Shown in pieces: positions 40,111 to 50,257 of a stretch of 64,000 nt of DNA. The first letter of the stretch is position 1; every line of letters starts with the position of its first letter. The notes under the pieces are model-generated. The model saw only the letters and a list, made by a program, of their open reading frames with translations. It was not told where the DNA came from and ran no database searches. The DNA comes from Falsiroseomonas ponticola. Its GTDB lineage: Bacteria; Pseudomonadota; Alphaproteobacteria; Acetobacterales; Acetobacteraceae. The DNA is taken from contig NZ_JAERQN010000010.1 of NCBI RefSeq assembly GCF_016805305.1, positions 62,001 to 126,000 of the forward strand, given 5' to 3'. Position numbers and translations under genes: made by a program.

Positions 40111-40362
40111 ATGGAAAGCGTGGTGCGGCAGATTCTTGACAGCCGCGGCGACCTGGCTGTGCCGGTGGCGCAGCTCGACCTGGCGGCGAACCTCTTCGAT
40201 GCGGGCCTCTCCTCCTTCGGCGCGGTCGAGGTGATGGTGGGGCTGGAGGAACATTTCGGTTCAAGTTTCCCTGATCGGTTGTTGCGCCGGGAAACCTTTT
40301 CCACCATCGCCGCGCTGATCGGTGCGGCGGAGGAACTGCACCGGCATTCCCTCGCCGCCTGA
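40111..40362 (+). CDS. Aminoacyl carrier protein (stand-alone ACP/PCP)
   Basis: An 83-residue carrier protein with the phosphopantetheine attachment site at Ser35 in DAGLSSFGAVEVM; the usual Asp before the serine is Ser34. The four-helix ACP pattern is clear, with GLEEHFGSSFPDRLL as helix III region. ATG 40111 is preferred over ATG 40099 because GGGGA lies 5 bp upstream. It ends 25 bp before the amino acid:carrier-protein ligase, so it is almost certainly the acceptor of that enzyme: glycine or alanine would be held as a thioester. It is not the fatty-acid ACP (sequence and context differ). Confidence 0.88.
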   Translation: MESVVRQILDSRGDLAVPVAQLDLAANLFDAGLSSFGAVEVMVGLEEHFGSSFPDRLLRRETFSTIAALIGAAEELHRHSLAA

Positions 40363-40387
40363 CTCCGGGCCGCCGAGAGGGAACAGC

Positions 40388-41329
40388 ATGCACAGCGCAA
40401 CCGTCGCCACCACGGCGACCCCGGCCGATCTGTTCCGGGAAGACCTGATCCGCCACGGCCACCTGCTGCCGACGGGTGTCGATGGCCTCTACGGGCGCGG
40501 CGAGGCCTTCGAGCGTGTCGTCGCCGCGGTCGATGCGATGGTCGGGCGGCTCGCCGGCGATGATCGCGTGGAGGTGCTGCGCTTCCCGCCCGCCATGTCC
40601 CGCGCGGGGTTCGAGGCCAGCGGCTATTTCCGCAACTTCCCGCAGCTGACCGCGGGCGTCTCCTGCTTCTGCGGGGATGATGCCGCGCATCGCCGCGCGC
40701 TGGCCTGCACGCCGGAGGAAGGCGGATGGGCCAGCCACATGCAGCCCGCCGACGTGATGCTGACGCCCGCTTCCTGCTACCCCGTCTATCCCATCGTGGC
40801 CGCGCGCGGGCGCCTGCCGGCGGAAGGCTGGCTGGTGGACAGCTCCTCCTACTGCTTCCGGCGCGAACCGTCGCTCGACCCCGTGCGGATGCAGATGTTC
40901 CGCCAGCGCGAACAGGTCTGCTTCGGCACGCCGGACCGCATCCGCGCCTTCCAGTCCCGCTGGATGGACCGCGCCATGGCGATGTTCGCGTCGCTGCACC
41001 TGCCGGCCGCGACCGACATCGCCAATGACCCCTTCTTCGGCCGCGCCGCGCCGCTGATGCGCGATGGCCAGCGCAGCCAGCGCCTGAAGTTCGAGATCCT
41101 GGTGCCGATCAGCGACCCCGATCGCCCGAACGCCTGCGGGTCCTTCAACTACCACGTCACCCATTTCGCGGAGGCCTACGGCATCCAGGGCGCGGATGGC
41201 GAACCCGCCCATACCGGCTGCGCCGGCTTCGGGTTGGAACGCATCGTGCTGGCACTGCTGCGCCACCACGGCATGGACCCCGCCGCCTGGCCCGAACCGG
41301 TGCGCGCGGCGCTCTGGCCCCGGCCGTGA
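40388..41329 (+). CDS. Amino acid--[acyl-carrier-protein] ligase (class II aaRS-like)
   Basis: A 313-residue homologue of the catalytic core of atypical seryl-tRNA synthetase, lacking any tRNA-binding domain. Enzymes of this kind (Bradyrhizobium Bll0957) activate glycine or alanine with ATP and load it on a carrier protein. Zinc ligands appear intact: Cys130 in ASCYPVYP, Glu175 in RQREQVCFG and Cys278 in HTGCAGFGLER, at spacing identical to the Cys131/Glu176/Cys279 set I recall for Bll0957. Class II motif 3 is GFGLERIVLALL; motif 2 surrounds RQREQVCFGTPDRIRAF. The next gene starts within its stop codon (GTGA). The family is firm; amino acid choice is not readable. Confidence 0.9.
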   Translation: MHSATVATTATPADLFREDLIRHGHLLPTGVDGLYGRGEAFERVVAAVDAMVGRLAGDDRVEVLRFPPAMSRAGFEASGYFRNFPQLTAGVSCFCGDDAAHRRALACTPEEGGWASHMQPADVMLTPASCYPVYPIVAARGRLPAEGWLVDSSSYCFRREPSLDPVRMQMFRQREQVCFGTPDRIRAFQSRWMDRAMAMFASLHLPAATDIANDPFFGRAAPLMRDGQRSQRLKFEILVPISDPDRPNACGSFNYHVTHFAEAYGIQGADGEPAHTGCAGFGLERIVLALLRHHGMDPAAWPEPVRAALWPRP

Positions 41330-43044
41330 AGGCGCCGGCACCCCCGCGCGCGGTGCCGGTCACGGTCGCCGGCTGCCACGCCTGGTTCCACCCCGCCGGC
41401 GGCACGCCGCTCGGCCAGGGCGTCATCCTGGTGGGGCCGGAGGGGCATGAGGCGCTGCTGGCGCATCGCGGCCTGCGGGACCTGGCGACGCGCTGCGCCG
41501 CGCTCGGCCTGCCGGCGCTGCGCATCGACCATCCCGGCACCGGCGACAGCCCGGGCGACCGCTTCCGGCTGGAAGCGGTGCGGGAGGCGATCCTCGGCGC
41601 CATCGACTGGATGCGGGCGGAGGCCGGCTGCGCGGCGGTGGCGCTGGCGGGGCTGCGGCTCGGCGCGCTGCTGGCCGCGCAGGCGGCCGCGCGCCGGCCC
41701 GGGGATGTCGCGGCCCTGCTGCTGCTGGCGCCCGTCGCGCAGGGCCGCACCCATCGGCGCCACATGCTGCTGGCCGCGCAGGTCGGCGGCGGGCGGGATG
41801 ACCGGGCGGATGGCATCGAGGTCGGCGGCCATCACTGGGCGGCGGAGGAACTGGAGGATCTGGCGGGCGCCGACCTTTCCGCCGCGCTCTGCCGCGCCGC
41901 CGCGCCGCGCGTGCTGGTGATGGACGGCGAAGCGGGCGCCGCCCGCCGCGTCGCCCCCGCCGTGGCCTTCGAGGCCTTCGAGGGCCTGGACCGGTTCCTG
42001 GCCCCGGCGCATGAGGCGCGCATCCCCGTCGAGGCCTTCGCCCGCGCCGCCGCCTGGCTGGCCGAGGATGCGCCCCCCGCCGGCACCCTTCCTGCCGTCC
42101 GGGAGGCCGAGCCCCGCCCCGTCGGCGGCGGGACGACGGAACGGGTGATCCGCTTCGGCCCAGGCGGCGCCCTGGCCGGCGTGCTGTGCAGCCCGGCCCC
42201 CGCGGCCGCGCGGCGCACGGCGGCGCTGCTGCTCAACACCGGCGCCAATGGCCATGTCGGCGTCGGCCGCTTCGGCGTGCGCCTGGCGCGCCGCCTGGCC
42301 GCTTCTGGCATCCCCTCCCTGCGCATGGACCTGCCCGGGCTTGGCGACAGCGAGGCGCCGGAGGGCGCGGACCCCGCCCTGGCCCCCGATCCCTTCGGGG
42401 AGGGGCTGCTGCCGGCGGCGCGGGCGGGGCGGGATGCGCTGGCGGCGACGGGGGCCTCCCGCTGCCTGGTCATCGGGCTCTGTTCCGGCGCGCATGTCGC
42501 GCTGCGGCTCGCGCTGCTCGATCCGCGGATCGATGGGCTGGCGCTGTTCAACCTGCCGGCCTTCGACCGCAGCCAGGGCGGCGCCCCCGCGCTGGATGGC
42601 GGCCCGCCGCCCGGGGAGGCGCCCTGGGCGCGCCGCCCGCGCATGCTGTGGCGCCGCCTGAAGGCGGAGGCCGATCGCGGCCTGGCCGCGCTGGGGATCG
42701 AGACCGGGCTCGACGCGCCCTCCGCCTGGATGCGGCGCCTGGCCGCGCGGCGGGTGCATGTGCTGCTGGGCTACAGCCGCGGCGACCGGGGCCTGCGGGA
42801 ATTGCGCGCGCATTTCGGCCGCCGCGGCCGGCGGCTCGCGGCCTTCCCGCTGGTGCGCTGCCGGGTGCTGGACGGCACGGAACACGCGCTGGCGCCGCTG
42901 GCGATGCAGGCGGAGGCGGCGGCGCTGATCGAGGATGCGGCGCTGCGGCTGGACAGCGCGGCGGCGCCGCTCGGCGCCAATACCCCCCGCCGGGACCAGC
43001 CCGCGCCGGGCGGCCTGGCGGACCTCGCGCTGCCCGCGCGCTGA
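41326..43044 (+). CDS. Tandem alpha/beta-hydrolase with inactive first half and Cys nucleophile in second half
   Basis: A 572-residue protein of two fused alpha/beta-hydrolase domains (about 1-255 and 270-545). In the first, the nucleophile elbow reads GLRLGA, with Arg111 where Ser should be, so it is probably a non-catalytic or regulatory domain. In the second, the elbow is GLCSGA with Cys386 as nucleophile, paired with an acid near GYSRGD and His520 in DGTEHA. A Cys nucleophile is well suited to thioester exchange or hydrolysis. It is coupled by GTGA overlap to the ligase and precedes the membrane acyltransferase by 19 bp. Roles as aminoacyl transferase, editing thioesterase or acceptor-processing hydrolase are all open. 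Confidence 0.8.
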   Translation: MKAPAPPRAVPVTVAGCHAWFHPAGGTPLGQGVILVGPEGHEALLAHRGLRDLATRCAALGLPALRIDHPGTGDSPGDRFRLEAVREAILGAIDWMRAEAGCAAVALAGLRLGALLAAQAAARRPGDVAALLLLAPVAQGRTHRRHMLLAAQVGGGRDDRADGIEVGGHHWAAEELEDLAGADLSAALCRAAAPRVLVMDGEAGAARRVAPAVAFEAFEGLDRFLAPAHEARIPVEAFARAAAWLAEDAPPAGTLPAVREAEPRPVGGGTTERVIRFGPGGALAGVLCSPAPAAARRTAALLLNTGANGHVGVGRFGVRLARRLAASGIPSLRMDLPGLGDSEAPEGADPALAPDPFGEGLLPAARAGRDALAATGASRCLVIGLCSGAHVALRLALLDPRIDGLALFNLPAFDRSQGGAPALDGGPPPGEAPWARRPRMLWRRLKAEADRGLAALGIETGLDAPSAWMRRLAARRVHVLLGYSRGDRGLRELRAHFGRRGRRLAAFPLVRCRVLDGTEHALAPLAMQAEAAALIEDAALRLDSAAAPLGANTPRRDQPAPGGLADLALPAR

Positions 43045-43063
43045 CGGCCGGAGGAGACAGTTC

Positions 43064-44215
43064 ATGAGTGCCGTGCTGACCGCGCAGCCCGCCTTCGCGC
43101 GCCCGGTGGATGCCTCCGCCGCGCTGACGCGCACCATCGAATTCGCCCGCGTCGCGCTGGTGATCGGCCTGGTGTTCCTGCACTACTTCAACCTGCCGGG
43201 CGACCACCGCCCGCCCTTCCAGGGCATCGACCCGGAGGGGCCGCGCCTGGCCACCTTCGTCAACGGCTTCCTGACCTTCTTCTTCTTCAGCGCCGTGCCG
43301 CTGCTGAGCGCGGTATCCGGCTGGCTGTTCTTCGGCGGCGGCGACCGCGCGGGGCAGGGGATCGGGCGCAAGCTGCGCGGGCGGCTGAAGTCGCTGCTGC
43401 TGCCGCTGGTGCTGTGGAACCTGGCGACGCTGGCGCTGGCCATCCTGGTGCAGCGCGTGGCGCCCACCATCGGCTTCGCGCAGCAGTTCAACATCCAGGT
43501 CGCGACCGCCGATGCCTGGGACTACGTCAATGCCGTGCTGGGCGTGACGGCGGTGCCGATCGCCTTCCAGTTCTGGTTCGTGCGCGACCTCTTCGTCACG
43601 GTGCTCTGCGCGCCGCTGATCTGGCTGGCGCTGCGGCATGCGCCCATCGCCGGCGCGGTGGTGCTGGCGGCGGTCTGGGCGGCGGGCTTCACGCTCGGCA
43701 TCTTCATCCGGACGGATGTGCTGTTCTTCTTCTACCTCGGCGCGCTGGCGCGGCGGCGGGGCTGGGACCTCGGCATCAGCGCCGGCGCCACGCTCTCCCT
43801 GCTCGTGGCCTATGCGGCGCTGACGGCGTTGCGCACCCTGGCGCCGCTGGTGGTGGACATGGCGGACCCCGCCACCATCGCCTGGCTGGACGTGGTGACG
43901 CGCCTGATCCGCCCGCTCGGCGTCGTCGCCTGCTGGGGGGTGTGCCTGCAGCTCGCCGCCACCGGCTGGGGCGGCCAGCTCGCGCGCTGGGGCGGCTTCG
44001 CCTTCTTCCTGCACGCCGCGCACTACCCCGTCATCGCCCTGGTGAAGGAGGTCCTGTCGAGGGTCATGCCCGCGACCGGGGAGGCCTGGCTGCTGGCGCA
44101 TTACGGCGCCTCCGTCCTGGTCACCCTTGGCATCGTGGCGGCGGCGGGGGTGCTGGTCTTCCGCCTCTCCCCCGCCTTCTACGGCGTGCTGGCCGGCGGG
44201 CGGCGCCTGGCATGA
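43064..44215 (+). CDS. Acyltransferase-3 (OafA/OpgC-like) integral membrane protein
   Basis: A 383-residue inner-membrane acyltransferase with about ten helices. It begins with the family pattern FARVALVIGLVFLHYF, in which His40 is the conserved catalytic-region histidine. VPLLSAVSGWLFFGG (about 85-99) is the usual second motif. The strong GAGGAGA ribosome site lies 7 bp before ATG 43064. Members acylate sugars or lipids in the membrane or periplasm, usually from acyl-CoA. Here, downstream of an aminoacyl-carrier-protein module, it may transfer an aminoacyl group to a surface glycan or lipid, as DltB does. That role is inferred. Its stop overlaps the GNAT gene (ATGA). Confidence 0.88.
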   Translation: MSAVLTAQPAFARPVDASAALTRTIEFARVALVIGLVFLHYFNLPGDHRPPFQGIDPEGPRLATFVNGFLTFFFFSAVPLLSAVSGWLFFGGGDRAGQGIGRKLRGRLKSLLLPLVLWNLATLALAILVQRVAPTIGFAQQFNIQVATADAWDYVNAVLGVTAVPIAFQFWFVRDLFVTVLCAPLIWLALRHAPIAGAVVLAAVWAAGFTLGIFIRTDVLFFFYLGALARRRGWDLGISAGATLSLLVAYAALTALRTLAPLVVDMADPATIAWLDVVTRLIRPLGVVACWGVCLQLAATGWGGQLARWGGFAFFLHAAHYPVIALVKEVLSRVMPATGEAWLLAHYGASVLVTLGIVAAAGVLVFRLSPAFYGVLAGGRRLA

Positions 44216-44886
44216 CCGGGGAGCCGGTGGAGGCGACGCCGCGCGCCCGGCCGGAGGCCGCGCCGCATCGCGGCCGCTGGGTGCTGCTGGAACCGCTCTC
44301 GGCCGGCCATGCCGCCGATCTCTGGCCGCACGCCGCCGCGGCGCCGGAGAGCTTCACCTTCCTGCCCTTCGGCCCCTTCGGCACCGAGGCCGCCTTCCGC
44401 GGCTATCTGCGCCTCGCGGCCGCGAGCCATGAGGAGATGCTCTGGGCCGTGCGGCCGCTCGGGCCCGATGGCGCGCCGGGGCCGGCGGCGGGGTGGATCG
44501 GGCTGCTCGACATCCGCCCCGCCCATGCGGCGGCGGAGCTCGGCAATCTCTGGTTCCCGCCCGGCCTGGCGCGGACGCGGGCGGCGACGGAGGCTTGCTT
44601 CCTGCTGCTGGACCACCTGCTGGGCAGGCTGCGCTACCTGCGGGTGGGCTGGAAGTGCAACGCGCTGCACCCGGCCTCCGGCCGCGCGGCGGAACGCCTG
44701 GGCTTCCGGCATGAGGGCAGGCTGCGCGCCCACATGATCGCGCGCGGGCGGCGGCGGGACACGGATTGGTACGGGCTGCTGGCGGAGGAATGGCCGCCGC
44801 GCCGCGCGGCCATCGCCGCCTGGCTCGATGCCGCCAATTTCGACGATGCGGGGCGGGAGAGGCGGAAGCTGGCGCGGGCGGGTTGA
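44212..44886 (+). CDS. GNAT-family acyltransferase
   Basis: A 224-residue RimJ/RimL-like GNAT protein. The fold is marked by WIGLLDIRPAHAAAELGNLWFPPGLARTRAATEA (acetyl-CoA pyrophosphate-binding region, short form) and NALHPASGRAAERLGFRHEGRLR near residue 150. It overlaps the membrane acyltransferase stop by 4 bp, so it belongs to the carrier-protein operon. It may acetylate a ribosomal or peptide amine, or, since GNAT-fold enzymes also transfer amino acids (Fem- and Aat-type), could use the aminoacyl carrier. The first option is the default; the second is speculative. Confidence 0.85.
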   Translation: MTGEPVEATPRARPEAAPHRGRWVLLEPLSAGHAADLWPHAAAAPESFTFLPFGPFGTEAAFRGYLRLAAASHEEMLWAVRPLGPDGAPGPAAGWIGLLDIRPAHAAAELGNLWFPPGLARTRAATEACFLLLDHLLGRLRYLRVGWKCNALHPASGRAAERLGFRHEGRLRAHMIARGRRRDTDWYGLLAEEWPPRRAAIAAWLDAANFDDAGRERRKLARAG

Positions 44887-44935: not shown

Positions 44936-45901
44936 ATGCCCAAGCTCACCCGCCGCGCGGCGCTGGCCGCGCCGCTGCTGATCGCGCTGCCCGCCCGCGC
45001 GCAGACCTGGCCCACGCGCCCGATCCGCCTGGTGGTCCCCTTCGCGCCCGGCGGCACCACGGATGTGATGGCGCGGCTGGTGGCGGAACGGCTCGGCGGG
45101 CTGCTCGGCCAGGCGGTGGTGGTGGAGAACCGCGCGGGCGCGGGCGCCACCATCGGCGCCGCCGCCGTCGCGCAGGCGGCGCCGGACGGGCAGGTGCTGG
45201 TGATGTCCAACAGCACCTCCCACGGTGTCTCCCCCGCGCTCTACGCCAACATCCCCTATGACGCGATGCGCGATTTCGTTCACGTGGCGCTGGTGGCGAC
45301 CAGCCCCTCGGTGCTCGTGGTGAACCCGGGCCATCGCGCGCGGGACCTGGCGCAGTTCATCGCCATGGCCCGGGAGGCGGGGGAGATCGACTTCGCGGTG
45401 GCGGGCATCGGCACGTCGAGCCACCTGGCCGGCATCCGGCTGGGTGCGGCGCTGGGGGTGAAGGTGAATGCCGTGCCCTACCGCGGCGCCGGCCCGGCGC
45501 TGACCGACACCATCGCGGGCGTGGTGCCCGCCATGCTGGACAGCCTGCCGAGCGCCGGGCCGCATATCCGCAGCGGATCGCTGCGCGGCATGGCCGTCAG
45601 CAGCGCCGCGCGGTCCGCCCGCTTCCCGGACCTGCCGACGCTGCGGGAGGGCGGCGTCGATGTGGTCAGCGCCGCCTGGTTCGGCCTGTCCGGCCCCGCC
45701 GGCCTGCCGCCCGCCATCGTGGCGCGGCTGGCGGAGGCGGTGCGCAGCGCGCTGTCCGACCCCGCCACCATCGCGCGGTTCGAGGAGCTGCTGGGCGCGC
45801 CGCCGCCGGAAAGCACGCCGGCCGATTTCACCCGCTTCGTGCAGGCGGAGCTGGCCGCCTTCGCGCCCATCGTGCGGGCGGCGGGCCTCACCCCGGGCTG
45901 A
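44936..45901 (+). CDS. Bug-family binding protein 4
   Basis: A 321-residue periplasmic Bug protein with a Tat-type signal peptide MPKLTRRAALAAPLLIALPARAQ. Ligand-site motifs are IRLVVPFAPGGTTDVMARL, ENRAGAGA and VPYRGAGPALTDTIAG. It follows the GNAT gene by 49 bp with its own GGAGGA ribosome site at 44924-44929, and no permease genes accompany it. Its last 14 bp overlap the convergent alpha/beta hydrolase gene. The ligand is unknown. Confidence 0.92.
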   Translation: MPKLTRRAALAAPLLIALPARAQTWPTRPIRLVVPFAPGGTTDVMARLVAERLGGLLGQAVVVENRAGAGATIGAAAVAQAAPDGQVLVMSNSTSHGVSPALYANIPYDAMRDFVHVALVATSPSVLVVNPGHRARDLAQFIAMAREAGEIDFAVAGIGTSSHLAGIRLGAALGVKVNAVPYRGAGPALTDTIAGVVPAMLDSLPSAGPHIRSGSLRGMAVSSAARSARFPDLPTLREGGVDVVSAAWFGLSGPAGLPPAIVARLAEAVRSALSDPATIARFEELLGAPPPESTPADFTRFVQAELAAFAPIVRAAGLTPG

Positions 45902-46826
45902 GGGCCAGCACCGCCTCCTCCACCACGGCGGGGGAGGCGTGGTGGATCATGTGCCCGGCGCCGGGCAGCACCACCAGGCGGCTGCCGGGCAGCAGGCCGT
46001 GCAGCCGCCGGGCCTGGCGTTCGGGGCTGACGATCCGGTCCTCCTCCCCCGCCAGGATGGCGAGGGGCAGGTGCAGCCGGCCGAGCCGGGCGGCGAGGCG
46101 CGCGGCGCCGGGGACCATGGCCGCGCTGTCCTCCGCCATGGCGCGGATCTGCCAGGGGCGGAGCGTGAGGGGCAGGGGGAAGTCGCGCTTGAAGCGGCGC
46201 GGCACGGGCAGCGGCGCGAACATGCGCCGGATCAGCGGCTTCGCCATGGCGCGGCCGAGCGGCGGGCCATAGGTGTAGCGGATGACCTCGCCGATCCCCG
46301 GGATGGCGGGGGGCGAGAAGAACAGCGCATCGGCGCGCAGGCCCGGGAAGTAGTAGCCCCCGGCCAGCACCAGCCCACCCACCTTGCTGGCATGGTCCAG
46401 CGCCAGCGCCACCGCGACCATGGCGCCGAAGCTGTGGCCCAGCACGATGGGGCGCACCAGGCCGAGGCGATCGATCGCCGCCGCCACCAGCGCGGCCTGG
46501 GCCTCCGGCGTCCAGTCCCGGTCGCGCGGGCGGTCGGTGCGGCCGAAGCCCGGGCGGTCGATCGCCACCACGCGGCGGTGGCGCGCCAGCAGGTCGATCA
46601 GACCGCTGCTGTCGAAATCCTCCACCATGCTGCCATTGCCGTGCAGCAGCACCACGGGCGGGCCATCCGGCGCGGGCGGGCCGCGATCCAGGATGTGCAG
46701 GCGGACGCCATCCACCGCGATGAAGCGGCCGGGGGAGGCGCGGGCACGCTCCGCCCCGCGCGCGGCCTGGTGGGTGGCAAGGGCGAAGCCGCCCGCGGCG
46801 GCGGCGAGCATCAGCAGGCGGGACAT
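45888..46826 (-). CDS. Alpha/beta-fold hydrolase, probably membrane-anchored or exported
   Basis: A 312-residue alpha/beta hydrolase with an N-terminal hydrophobic segment (MSRLLMLAAAAGGFALATHQAA) that could be a signal or membrane anchor. The oxyanion segment is VVLLHGNGSMVEDF. The nucleophile is the Ser of LGHSFGAMVA; the acid lies near AGEEDRIVSP and the His in GAGHMIHH. The fold resembles epoxide hydrolase/haloperoxidase-type esterases. ATG 46826 is the start: the open frame continues far upstream, but only as antisense of the chemoreceptor. It is divergent from the chemoreceptor at 46995. Confidence 0.88.
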   Translation of the reverse strand: MSRLLMLAAAAGGFALATHQAARGAERARASPGRFIAVDGVRLHILDRGPPAPDGPPVVLLHGNGSMVEDFDSSGLIDLLARHRRVVAIDRPGFGRTDRPRDRDWTPEAQAALVAAAIDRLGLVRPIVLGHSFGAMVAVALALDHASKVGGLVLAGGYYFPGLRADALFFSPPAIPGIGEVIRYTYGPPLGRAMAKPLIRRMFAPLPVPRRFKRDFPLPLTLRPWQIRAMAEDSAAMVPGAARLAARLGRLHLPLAILAGEEDRIVSPERQARRLHGLLPGSRLVVLPGAGHMIHHASPAVVEEAVLALSPG

Positions 46827-46994
46827 GGGGGGTGCTCCGGCAGGGTCGGCGGGTGAACCCCGCGAACCCCGCCGGGGTTCGACGGCACCGCCCCGGTTCG
46901 CCGCGGCGGCCCCGCCGCAATCGGTTGTAACCGTTCGGAGTCTATTCACTTGATTCGGCCAGGGTGCCGGCCGCCAGCCTGGAGGTGCCCCGCC
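46827..46994. promoter_or_regulatory. Divergent control region hydrolase / chemoreceptor
   Basis: The 168-bp gap holds an 8-bp perfect hairpin CGAACCCC-GCC-GGGGTTCG (46863-46881). It also holds a small dyad CGGTT-GT-AACCG (46922-46933), beside an A/T-leaning segment (GAGTCTATTCACTTGATTCGG) likely to contain promoter elements. The dyad may be an operator. Confidence 0.4.
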
Positions 46995-49277
46995 TTGCCC
47001 ATCCTGTCGAAGCTCACCGGCCTGCGTGGCCGGCTTACCGCCCTGGCCGTCGTGCCGGCGCTGGCCGCGGTGCTGCTGACCGCCGCCAGCGGCTATTCCG
47101 CGCTGCTGGCCGTGCAGCAGGACCGGCAGCGCGCCGAACTCGCCGCCGCCAGCGACCGGCTGTCCACCGCGCTGGCCGACATCGCGCGGCAGATGCACGG
47201 CTATGCCGCCAGCCTGGCGCCGCGGCCGAACGTGGTCCAGGCCCTGTCGCGGGGCGATGCGCCGGCGGCGCAGCGGCTGATGGCGGATACCTTCGCCGCG
47301 ATCCGCGCCGCGGACCCGACGCTGGAGGTGATCGAGGTGACGGATGCGCGCGGCCGGGTGCTGGCGCGCGGGCACCAGCCCACCCGCTTCGGCGACGACA
47401 AATCCATGGTGCCGGACGTGGCGGCGGCGCTGTCCGGGCGCCCGGGGCTCGGCAACGTCATGTCGCCGGCGACCAACGAACTCGCCATCGGGGCCACCCT
47501 GCCGGTGATGCAGGATGGGCGCGTGGTCGGGACGGTGAAGGCGGGCACGCGGCTCAGCGCCCATACCGCCACCATGCTGGGCGAGCTGGCGGGGGGCGAG
47601 GCGCTGCTCTTCGTCAATGGCGCGCTGCTGGGCTCCACCGTGCCGGGCATGACGGTGCAGTCCCTGCCGGCCGAGCTGCTGGCGGCGGCGCGGTCGGGCG
47701 GGTCCGCCGTGCCGCTGACGGTGCGGCTGGGCGACAAGGGCATCCACACCGCGGTGGTGGTGGGCGTGAAGGATTTCCAGGGCGAGGTGGTCGGCGCCGC
47801 GGTGCTGGCGGTTTCCGACCTGCCCTGGGCCATGGCGCGCACCGCCGCGCTGCTGCGCATGCTGGCGGTGGCGGCCGTGCTGGTTTCCGTGACGATGCTG
47901 GTGGGCCTTCTGGTGGCGGGGCGCATCGCCCGCCCCATGGTCGGCATGGCGGCGGCGATGGGCGACATCGCGGCGGAGCGTGACGAAGTCGCCATCCCCG
48001 GCGCGGGCCGGGCGGATGAGATCGGCCGCATGGCCAGCGCCCTGGCCACGCTGGCGGCGGCGGCGACCGAGAAGCGGCGCCTGGAGGCCAAGGCGGCGGA
48101 GGAGCGCGCCATCCAGCTGCGCCGCGCCGCGGCGGTGGAACGCCACACCGCCGATTTCGGCCGCAGCGTCGGCGGCGTGCTGGGATCGCTGGGGGAGGCC
48201 GCGACCGCGATGCGGGAGACGGCGGGCGGCATGGCCGCCAGCGCCCAGCAGACGGAGGCCGAGGCCGCGCGCACCGCCCAGGCGGCGGACAGCGCGGCCG
48301 GGGACCTCGGCACCGTCGCGGCGGCGGCGGAGGAACTCGCTTCCTCCGTCTCCGAGATCAGCCGCCAGGTGGCGACCGCGGCGATGGTGGCGCGGGAGAC
48401 GGTGGAGCAGGCGACCGCGACGGATGCGCGGATGCAGGCGCTGACCGTGACGGCGGACCGCATCGGCGGCATCGTGCGCCTGATCTCCGACGTCGCGGGG
48501 CGCACCAACCTGCTGGCGCTGAACGCGACGATCGAGGCCGCGCGCGCCGGGGAGGCGGGCAAGGGCTTCGCCGTGGTGGCGGGCGAGGTGAAGGCGCTGG
48601 CGACCCAGACCGCCAAGGCGACGGAGGAGATCGCCGCCCAGATCACCGCCATGGAAAGTGCCACGCGCGGGGCGGCGGATGCCATGCAGGGCGTCGTCGC
48701 CTCCATCCGGCGGATGGACGAGGTCGCCGCCACCATCGCCGCGGCGGTGGAGGAACAGGGGGTGGCGACGAAGGAGATCAACCAGCGCGTCCAGTCCGTC
48801 TCCGGCAGCACGCGGGTGGTGACCGGGGCGATGGAGGAGCTGTCCTCCATCGCGCGCAATTCCGGCGCCGACAGCCGCGCCGTGCTGGGCGCGGCGGAGG
48901 GGCTGGTGGCGCAGGCGGCGACGCTGCGGCAGGAGGTGGACGGCTTCCTGGCCGCGATCCGCGCCGATACGGGGGAGCGCCGCCGCTTCGAACGCCTGCC
49001 CGCCCGCGGCAGCCGCGTGGGCCTGGTGCTGCCCGGCCAGGCGGAGCGGGCGGTGGAGCTGGTGGACCTGTCGGCGGGCGGCGCGGCGATGCGCTGCGCC
49101 CTGGAGCTGGCGCCGGGCACCGAGGTTTCGCTGACGCTGCTGCCCGGGCAGAAGCCGGAACCCGCGCGGGTGGTGCGGGCGGAAGGCGGCGTGCTGGCGG
49201 TGGTGTTCCGCGCCGCGCCGAGCGCGGCGGCGGAGCCGCTGCTGGACCAGCTGCGGGGCGTGAAGCGGGCGGCCTAG
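46995..49277 (+). CDS. Methyl-accepting chemotaxis protein with C-terminal PilZ domain
   Basis: A 760-residue chemoreceptor. TM1 (about 13-35) and TM2 (about 285-308) bracket a Cache sensor domain (about 45-280) with a [25 protein letters not shown] core. HAMP follows, then the signalling hairpin whose tip reads [27 protein letters not shown]. The C-terminal 100 residues form a PilZ domain: RRRFERLP and [10 protein letters not shown] fit the RxxxR and (D/N)xSxxG c-di-GMP motifs. The start is TTG 46995 with GGAGGTG at 46981-46987; in-frame TTG 46950 lacks that support. Its stop overlaps the convergent stop by CTAG. The CheR-binding pentapeptide is absent. Confidence 0.92.
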
Positions 49278-50257
49278 CTGGACGCCGTCTCGGGGTGGAA
49301 CATCTCCTCCACCCCGAGGCGCCGGCGCGAGAGGTGCTGGGCGTGGGACCAGCGGGCGATCGCCTCCAGCTCCGCCCGGTTGGCGGCGATGCCATAGGTC
49401 CAGGGATCGGCGCCGAGGAGCGCCTTGGTCGCCGCCCATTCCTCCGCCAGGAAGGGCAGCATGAGGCTGAGCGAGGAATGGCGGAGATCGGCCTCCAGAT
49501 CCGAGAGGCCGAGGCGGCGGGCCTGCTCGAAGGCGGCGTAGAGCTGGCCGGCCAGGCCGGGATGCCTGGCTGCGATCTCCTTCCGCAGGCCGATGACGTG
49601 CATGATCGGGTGGAAGCCGGTGCGGCGGTGATAGGCCGCGGCCGCCGCGCGCGGATCGGGGAAGAGGCGCAGCACGCGCGGATCGCCTTCGGCGAAGGCG
49701 AGGGGTTCCGTGGGCGAAAGGATGGCGTCGATCTCGCCGGCCAGCAGCGCGGCGTTGAGCGTCGAGCCCTCCGGCAGCGGGCGCACATCCATCCCCGGCG
49801 GGAGTTCGAGGGGCAGGCGTTCGCGGCGTCCCGCCTGGTTGGTGCCGGCGGTGCGCCAGCGGATCCCGTTCACATCGACGCCCTGGTCATCGGCCAGGAT
49901 GCCGCGCAGCCAGAGGCCGAGGGTCATCTGGTACTCGGGGATTCCGACGCGCCGGCCCTCCAGCCCCTTGGCCTCCGTGATGCCGGCATCGGCGCGGAGA
50001 TAGATGCAGCCGTGGCGGAAGGCGCGGGAGACGAAGGCGGGGATGGCGTCATAGGCGGCCTCGCCCCGCGAGACCTGGATGAGCTGGGAGGAGAGCGAGA
50101 GCTCCGTCACGTCGAATTCGGCGCGGGAGAAGGCGCGGGGGAAGCTCTGCTCCGAGTGGATCGGCACCGGCACCAGGCGGATGCCGGGCAGTGTCACGCG
50201 CCCGTCGAAGAGGGCGCGGACGCGGTCATAGGGGGCGCAGGCAACGGTGAGAATCAA
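49274..50257 (-). CDS. Type-II periplasmic-binding-fold protein (4,5-dihydroxyphthalate decarboxylase-like)
   Basis: A 327-residue protein of the ABC-type NitT/TauT-like binding fold family often annotated 4,5-dihydroxyphthalate decarboxylase. It has no signal peptide, beginning [13 protein letters not shown], so it may be cytoplasmic. It contains [17 protein letters not shown] and [21 protein letters not shown]. The start is TTG 50257, supported by AGGAGA six bases upstream; an ATG in the leader is in another frame and hits a stop. The enzymatic function is unproven for this subgroup, and no phthalate pathway genes are nearby. Confidence 0.8.
49289..49318. terminator. Hairpin inside the C-terminal coding region of the 49274 gene, likely terminating the chemoreceptor
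   Basis: A perfect 11-bp stem CTCGGGGTGGA/TCCACCCCGAG encloses an 8-nt loop, 12 bp beyond the chemoreceptor stop. Because the two genes end in a shared CTAG, the terminator of the rightward gene has to be embedded in the leftward one. Confidence 0.6.

Follow-up and report, generated by a model that had tools for sequence, protein, structure and literature searches.

Does the compact five-gene locus at positions 40111-44886 of the DNA studied here, a stretch of 64,000 nucleotides from Falsiroseomonas ponticola (contig NZ_JAERQN010000010.1, positions 62,001 to 126,000; hereafter the window), encode a route by which an amino acid is activated, loaded onto a carrier protein and transferred to the cell envelope, as in the Dlt system? 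A preliminary description of the locus had read it in this way. Our analysis leads us to conclude that the cassette is real, conserved and interpretable, and that it operates in the manner of Dlt without being a member of that system; transfer by its membrane enzyme, the role of its hydrolase and the acceptor are parts of the scheme that we infer. On balance, we lean towards the view that the cassette is a carrier-protein aminoacyl-transfer pathway that follows Dlt logic and represents a remodelled amino acid:carrier-protein (aa:CP) ligase operon.

Five open genes, all on the forward strand, fill the interval in the order CP, LIG, HYD, AT3 and GNAT, with the gaps of 25, −4, 19 and −4 bp that had been described. 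Their families were assigned with Pfam and NCBIfam models and their curated cut-offs. CP (40111..40362, 83 aa) is a carrier protein (PF00550, E 1.2e-9; NF005480, 76.2 bits, cut-off 72), whose predicted phosphopantetheine (Ppant) attachment site, S35 within GLSSF, is encoded at 40213-40215. LIG (40388..41329, 313 aa) is matched by the aa:CP ligase model NF005479 (439.4 bits, cut-off 357), and HYD (41326..43044, 572 aa, GTG start) is a tandem alpha/beta-hydrolase with TIGR03101 and TIGR03100 matches below cut-off. AT3 (43064..44215, 383 aa) is an acyltransferase-3 membrane protein (PF01757, 63 bits, cut-off 31), and GNAT (44212..44886, 224 aa) is a RimJ/RimL-like acyltransferase (PF13302, 52.3 bits, cut-off 25.4).

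Judged by its NF005479 score, LIG is a genuine aa:CP ligase derived from an aminoacyl-tRNA synthetase (aaRS), as had been proposed. It comprises the class II aaRS (SerRS-like) core only, SerRS models covering just positions 309-503 of 518, and with 313 residues it lacks a tRNA-binding domain, as is characteristic of the family; the carrier-protein gene that likewise accompanies family members adjoins it, 25 bp upstream. Matches in the PDB include 4h2w (E 1.8e-84) and 3mey (E 1.3e-82), and residues 28-310 align with Bradyrhizobium Bll0957. Three residues, C130, E175 and C278, are conserved in all 88 ligase loci that we compared, and presumably correspond to the Cys/Glu/Cys zinc ligands of Bll0957. 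The nearest solved chains to CP are 4h2w_C and 2jq4_A (Atu2571), whereas the DltC model NF003464 matches it weakly (23.6 bits, cut-off 68). Loading of amino acids onto a carrier protein was reportedly demonstrated for homologues of LIG by Mocibob in 2010. The genome that holds the window has one ligase match in total, and a ligase above the NF005479 cut-off is found in 10 of 299 genomes of the order. The downstream acceptor served by such ligases had been described as unresolved, and the available part of a 2022 review likewise regards the function of aa:CP ligases as unknown (PMC9437257).

The 88 distinct ligase loci comprise the best 80 of at least 564 confirmed relatives, nine loci from the order-wide search and the window, minus two duplicates (L013, identical to L024, and L014, identical to L023), and they are not an even sample because the best 80 were ranked by likeness to the window. 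Genes in these loci were called by custom profiles and open frames rather than by an annotator, and the loci were compared by BLAST through 35 representatives. In 64 of the 88 loci the order is CP, acyl-CoA dehydrogenase, LIG, DUF1839 and a GH2-like gene when HYD is set aside, the GH2 label referring to a Pfam score below cut-off (18.6 of 27). DUF1839 occurs within the examined stretch in 72 loci, and in 36 of these a relative of HYD lies no more than ~10 kb away, on one strand or the other. In three further loci CP, the dehydrogenase, the ligase and HYD are present and DUF1839 is absent; one of them (L027) is a short contig, and the examined stretch of another (L021) ends soon after HYD.

This widespread operon, and the prediction attached to it, had been missed in the preliminary description. 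In the part of their paper available, Iyer et al. (2010; PMC2922099) describe this operon context and predict that an amino acid forms an amide with a cell-surface sugar through Atu2574, which by gene order we take to be the DUF1839 protein. Subsequent work assigned DUF1839 to the papain-like fold and described its triad as C(T/S)H (PMC10318531, the relevant portion). Part of the earlier proposal, the aminoacylation of a surface sugar, was therefore already in print for the common operon; in open-access full texts we found no account of the five-gene variant with AT3 and GNAT. The window shares the NF005479 ligase and the carrier family with the canonical operon (Bradyrhizobium Bll0957, Agrobacterium Atu2571-Atu2574 type), but its clade has AT3 and GNAT in place of the acyl-CoA dehydrogenase, DUF1839 and GH2 genes, none of which occurs in any of the eight cassette loci. 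A DUF1839 search of the window's own genome gave no match, but neither did its controls. Taken together, we conclude that the window cassette is a lineage-specific remodelling of the widespread aa:CP ligase operon.

All five genes occur together in eight of the 88 loci, with the same order in seven; in the remaining one (L025) GNAT lies upstream of the other four. The eight are the window, L015 and L016 from the order search, L022 (Falsiroseomonas algicola), L023 (Paracraurococcus ruber), L024 and L026 (both Belnapia) and L025 (an Acetobacteraceae metagenome-assembled genome). Their ligases form a single clade (SH-aLRT 100) confined to Acetobacteraceae/Roseomonadaceae, in a quick tree of 66 of 90 loci that left out near-duplicates and carries SH-aLRT support only. 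AT3 and GNAT profiles (E 1e-5) matched in 8/8 cassette loci and in none of the other 80, and GLSS[FY] surrounds the Ppant site of CP in all eight. Ligase identity within the clade spans 65-92%, and AT3 is 43-89% identical to the window copy. The sister species (L022) retains six of seven tested genes that flank the cassette in the window, while no flanking window gene was found within ~5-10 kb on each side in the other six loci, except for a 40% TctC match in L016. Because the same five genes recur in eight of the 88 loci, the cassette is not a chance assemblage. The five-gene order whose survey had been suggested is thus conserved in one clade, although the usual ligase operon differs from it, and conservation of the partners with the ligase, on which the earlier reading had been made to depend, extends to HYD (47 of 88 loci) but for AT3 and GNAT only to the eight cassette loci.

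How far, then, does the likeness to Dlt go? In both Dlt (DltA, DltB, DltC, DltD and DltX) and the window, one operon covers activation and the loading of a carrier and encodes a membrane acyltransferase, whereas the window has an aaRS-like ligase for DltA and AT3 (PF01757) for DltB, plus HYD and GNAT. Membership of the Dlt system was ruled out, as the cassette has no DltA-type adenylation domain (A-domain), MBOAT or SGNH protein. Pfam and NCBIfam models gave no DltD-like or FXYXXF match among the five genes, a gene of DltX size not having been looked for.

The Dlt-like logic itself, as first suggested, holds up because the HYD family occurs in operons with CP, MBOAT, SGNH-like and A-domain genes, and because distant ligases stand beside CP and MBOAT. 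Operons of the former kind (L115:7269-14799, minus strand; L156:6768-14233) come from two Acetobacteraceae genomes of one genus and consist of CP, a DltB-like MBOAT, an SGNH-like protein, HYD, an A-domain protein and an SDR protein; a third genome of the same genus (L159) has a ligase operon with HYD instead. HYD also lies within ~5 kb of the same A-domain/SDR pair at L114 and L158, and is broken by stops in the latter. As for the distant ligases, aaRS-like ligases below the cut-off adjoin CP and a DltB-like MBOAT in three of seven places (L163:7544-10615; L164:7445-11212, minus strand; L166:8702-13006), which represent two genomes, as L163 and L166 come from one. The other four are an AurF cluster (L165, L181), a neighbourhood with PIG-L and hexapeptide genes (L167) and a contig end (L182). 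The CP of L166 is matched by PF00550 (43.2 bits) and that of L164 was called from a profile match (2.8e-4) together with reading of the sequence, while that of L163, whose neighbours are only partly covered, has a weak phmmer match (3.5e-5) and no Pfam or NCBIfam match.

Each of the five MBOATs in these operons ends in FXYXXF (FLYFQF, FLYYQF or FIYFRF), and their sole NCBIfam match is DltB, below cut-off (159-185 of 375). DltX and PatA shuttle acyl groups by means of this hexapeptide (PMC12148441, the available part). The SGNH-like proteins were recognized by motif and by eye, with GDS and D-x-x-H at L115 and L156, where the protein also has a hydrophobic stretch, and with GSS and H-x-N-A at L164 and L166; no family model matched any of the four. 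In comparison with the window, L115 and L156 share HYD and CP, and L163, L164 and L166 share the aaRS-like ligase and CP, but the window has AT3 where these operons have a DltB-like FXYXXF MBOAT and, L163 excepted, an SGNH-like protein. The window's own genome encodes two MBOATs outside the cassette, one of which ends in FIYFQF without a CP match nearby; therefore, FXYXXF alone is no marker of carrier-protein use. The second (L180:8360-14008, contig C24) lies ~4 kb from another carrier-protein-like open reading frame.

The two halves of the hydrolase differ. HYD had been described as a tandem hydrolase with a Cys nucleophile, which applies to the C-half but not to the N-half. Cys386 (G-L-C-S-G; codon at 42481..42483), the proposed catalytic residue, is Cys in 48/48 relatives that cover the site, two of the 50 relatives being truncated, whereas the nucleophile elbow of the N-half has Arg (R111), and Arg or Gly, never Ser or Cys, in 50/50 relatives. 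A second alignment of 36 sequences has C386 and H520 invariant and D487 in at least 90%. An AlphaFold2 (AF2) model of HYD (pLDDT 88.2, pTM 0.89) places C386 directly after a strand, D487 after the penultimate strand and H520 after the last, which are the usual places in alpha/beta-hydrolases. Judging from the alignments, the N-half looks dead and the C-half appears to have a C386-D487-H520 set. Two working hydrolases in one chain were ruled out by the lack of a Ser/Cys nucleophile in the N-half. The exosortase A hydrolases 1 and 2 (TIGR03100 and TIGR03101) each match one half of HYD, in which both make up one chain; assignment to either was rejected, as the scores (TIGR03101 on the N-half, 82 bits, cut-off 202.75; TIGR03100 on the C-half, 68.6 bits, cut-off 168.45) fall below the cut-offs.

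HYD also follows the ligase across genomes. Seven of 385 genomes in the class contain a HYD match at E <= 1e-60; all seven belong to the 10 whose ligase scores above the cut-off, and none of the 375 others has such a match (Fisher p 5e-13); at E <= 1e-20 there are matches in 15 genomes (p 3e-9), and both p values ignore kinship, the E <= 1e-60 cut having been set after the list was seen. Among the 299 genomes of the order, HYD (E < 1e-40) is present in 7/10 with a ligase and in 3/289 others (p 4e-10). The match in G611 spans positions 2-383 only, ligase and HYD are on separate contigs in G482, and three of the 10 ligase-positive class genomes (G655, G437 and G367) have no HYD match. A HYD search of a plasmid collection gave no match and is uninformative, since a locus from a plasmid record (L075) holds a HYD relative. 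In genomes without a ligase, two separate hydrolase genes akin to the HYD halves (L183:9083-12918 and L184:8844-12773) have a CP gene and a divergent AMP-binding-like gene as neighbours, and such split pairs also point to a carrier-protein partner. Presumably this arrangement resembles the exosortase A set, in which TIGR03098 is by name an AMP-forming ligase.

Based on these observations, we hypothesize the following sequence of events. LIG would adenylate a small amino acid and load it as a thioester onto the Ppant arm of CP, as its family and conserved residues suggest. HYD might then dock on aminoacyl-CP and act as a relay or transferase, with Cys386 accepting the aminoacyl group and the dead N-half serving as a scaffold or docking part. 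AT3 would provide the membrane step, in place of the DltB-like MBOATs of the related operons: at the inner membrane, or across it, AT3 would deliver the aminoacyl group to an acceptor on the surface, or else attach an acyl group to the aminoacylated product. Finally, GNAT may N-acylate the product or take aminoacyl-CP as a donor. The acceptor had been proposed to be a surface glycan, a lipid or a periplasmic glucan; the evidence picks out none of the three.

The proposed steps have parallels in known systems. AT3 has an R29-X10-H40 motif in its first helix, and R-X10-H is present in 11/11 sequences (eight cassette copies and three paralogues); it is the motif of AT3 surface acyltransferases in the available part of PMC9558356. 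Stand-alone AT3 enzymes of this kind (OacA, OafB, OpgC, IcaC) resemble the window protein, in which no SGNH domain was found; the available sources name acetyl-CoA or acyl groups, succinyl for example, as their donors, and not acyl-CP, whereas the window AT3 adjoins CP and a ligase. In the SB-203208 system (SbzA, SbzC, SbzI), aminoacyl transfer likewise depends on an aaRS-like enzyme together with GNATs, but SbzA is IleRS-like, takes an aminoacyl-tRNA substrate and leads to an antibiotic (PMC6331615, in the part available).

A number of observations weigh against the proposed pathway. None of the five cassette genes encodes an MBOAT, an SGNH protein or a glycosyltransferase, and we know of no AT3 shown to accept acyl-CP. 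Since MBOATs use both acyl-CoA (PatA) and acyl-CP (DltB) as donors, it would not be far-fetched for an AT3 to have switched donors. The sole AT3 model is weak (AF2 pLDDT 70.2 from six alignment rows), hydropathy segments merge so that a ten-helix topology is hard to read, and a fold search of the PDB with this model gave no match at E <= 0.001, human HGSNAT standing at rank 15 (probability 0.69, TM 0.44). Among the genomes of the order, AT3 relatives of at least 53% identity occur in five cassette genomes and in G245, which has no ligase; paralogues (53-54%) without an adjacent LIG are found in G245 and as two extra copies in G279. One paralogue (L111:6184-10504) lies downstream of a multicopper oxidase gene, near which Pfam also identifies genes for a P-type ATPase, CopD and a DUF305 protein, and the paralogues at L110 and L112 have neighbours of similar size to those in L111. 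As for HYD, eight of the 375 class genomes without a ligase have weaker matches (1e-60 to 1e-20): G299 (L184) and G601 (L183) carry the two separate genes described above, five match the C-half only, and in G444 two fragments, each at the end of a contig (L185, L186), may together make up a single tandem gene without a ligase. HYD copies at L113 and L157 (a second copy) have neither a ligase nor Dlt-like neighbours. GNAT relatives are found in 186 of the 299 genomes of the order, and a second copy in the window's own genome is 53% identical. Ligase relatives in clusters of metabolite type, taken up below, and the acetyl-CoA use of a known AT3 domain count on the same side.

As the main rival to a relay, HYD might be an editing (type II) thioesterase that clears misloaded CP within the same pathway, with AT3 and GNAT doing the rest. 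This is quite plausible, although we would not put it at an even chance: the alpha/beta-hydrolase fold has C386, D487 and H520 in the usual places, the top Foldseek matches of the HYD model are esterases and lipases, with a curacin-biosynthesis thioesterase domain at rank 31, and single alpha/beta-hydrolase genes accompany ligases in Streptomyces and Priestia clusters. A strict Cys for Ser and a conserved dead N-half, on the other hand, exceed the needs of simple hydrolysis, which weighs against editing without being proof.

A second possibility, which we regard as rather doubtful, assigns the transfer to GNAT, which would pass the aminoacyl group from CP to a cytoplasmic amine, while the product, once exported, would receive from AT3 an acetyl or succinyl group that has nothing to do with this transfer. 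GNAT could be a transferase because GNATs using carrier-protein donors exist, SbzC and SbzI accepting acyl groups from carrier proteins in the accessible part of PMC6331615. Matches of CP include a solved chain that bears the name 'Carrier protein,GNAT family transferase' (8zt4); the nearest solved structure to GNAT itself is 3tcv. The AT3 domain of OatA takes acetyl-CoA and forms acyl-Tyr (PMC12148441, likewise in part), in line with such a division of labor. However, the GNAT profile matches cassette loci only (10/90 when the two duplicates are included), so the other ligase operons do without GNAT, and the commonness of this RimJ-like family noted above also speaks against this reading.

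It seems unlikely that the cassette makes a small secreted metabolite, N-acylated or peptide-like, rather than modifying the surface. Such a role is suggested by the patchy distribution of the ligase in the order, by the AurF cluster at L165 and L181, which also holds nitronate monooxygenase and methyltransferase genes, by relatives of LIG in polyketide synthase (PKS) and nonribosomal peptide synthetase (NRPS) clusters of Streptomyces plasmids, and by a Priestia ligase cluster with an alanine racemase. In the Streptomyces plasmids (L174, L175), CP, acyl-CoA dehydrogenase, a ligase relative, 3-hydroxyacyl-CoA dehydrogenase and an acyltransferase lie in the PKS/NRPS clusters, a set reminiscent of an aminomalonyl-acyl carrier protein (ACP) route with an aaRS-like loader. 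The plasmid of Priestia megaterium, a Gram-positive bacterium (L172), has ACP, acyl-CoA dehydrogenase and ligase genes in this order, together with ATP-grasp, alpha/beta-hydrolase, alanine permease and the alanine racemase. By contrast, the five window genes include no exporter, PKS or NRPS, and the nearer ligase relatives keep the GH2-like gene and DUF1839 (the latter in 72/88), which are linked to glycans in the available parts of PMC10318531 and PMC2922099. Further, on a Tsukamurella plasmid, genes for glycosyltransferases and a polyprenyl glycosylphosphotransferase surround a ligase, CP and a Ppant transferase. By our analysis, this plasmid and the operons with HYD or MBOATs shift the odds from a metabolite towards a carrier-protein route that ends at the envelope, without proving it for the window.

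Finally, the idea that AT3 and GNAT are passengers fixed by chance next to a ligase-HYD pair, prompted by the copper genes beside AT3 paralogues and by the numerous relatives of GNAT, is very improbable, given that both genes are retained in 8/8 loci of the clade across the range of ligase identity given above, that neighbouring genes of the window cassette overlap by 4 bp, that other flanking genes persist in the sister species only, and that GNAT is retained even where it has been relocated upstream (L025).

If AT3 takes aminoacyl-CP, the window AT3 would be, as far as is known, the first acyltransferase-3 with a carrier-bound aminoacyl thioester as donor instead of acyl-CoA; a new donor type would thereby be added to the AT3 family. 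Aa:CP ligases were described in 2010, and these relatives of tRNA synthetases would gain a tRNA-free route into envelope chemistry. The sister operons, in which ligases adjoin FXYXXF MBOATs, and the shared HYD make an amino acid ester or amide of the envelope a concrete prediction. The main outcome is the wider pattern, in which ligases and membrane acyltransferases are seemingly interchangeable around CP and a shared tandem hydrolase. We tentatively suggest a modular Gram-negative class of Dlt-like envelope aminoacylation, in which the activating enzyme (A-domain or aaRS-like), the membrane acyltransferase (DltB-like MBOAT or AT3) and the tandem dead/Cys hydrolase relay might be exchanged around CP.

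Downstream of the cassette, positions 46950-49277 of the window encode a protein like methyl-accepting chemotaxis proteins, whose tail by eye resembles a PilZ domain. A frame of 1183 codons is open on the minus strand at 45888-49439, over a gene on the opposite strand; such shadow frames are common in this GC-rich sequence.

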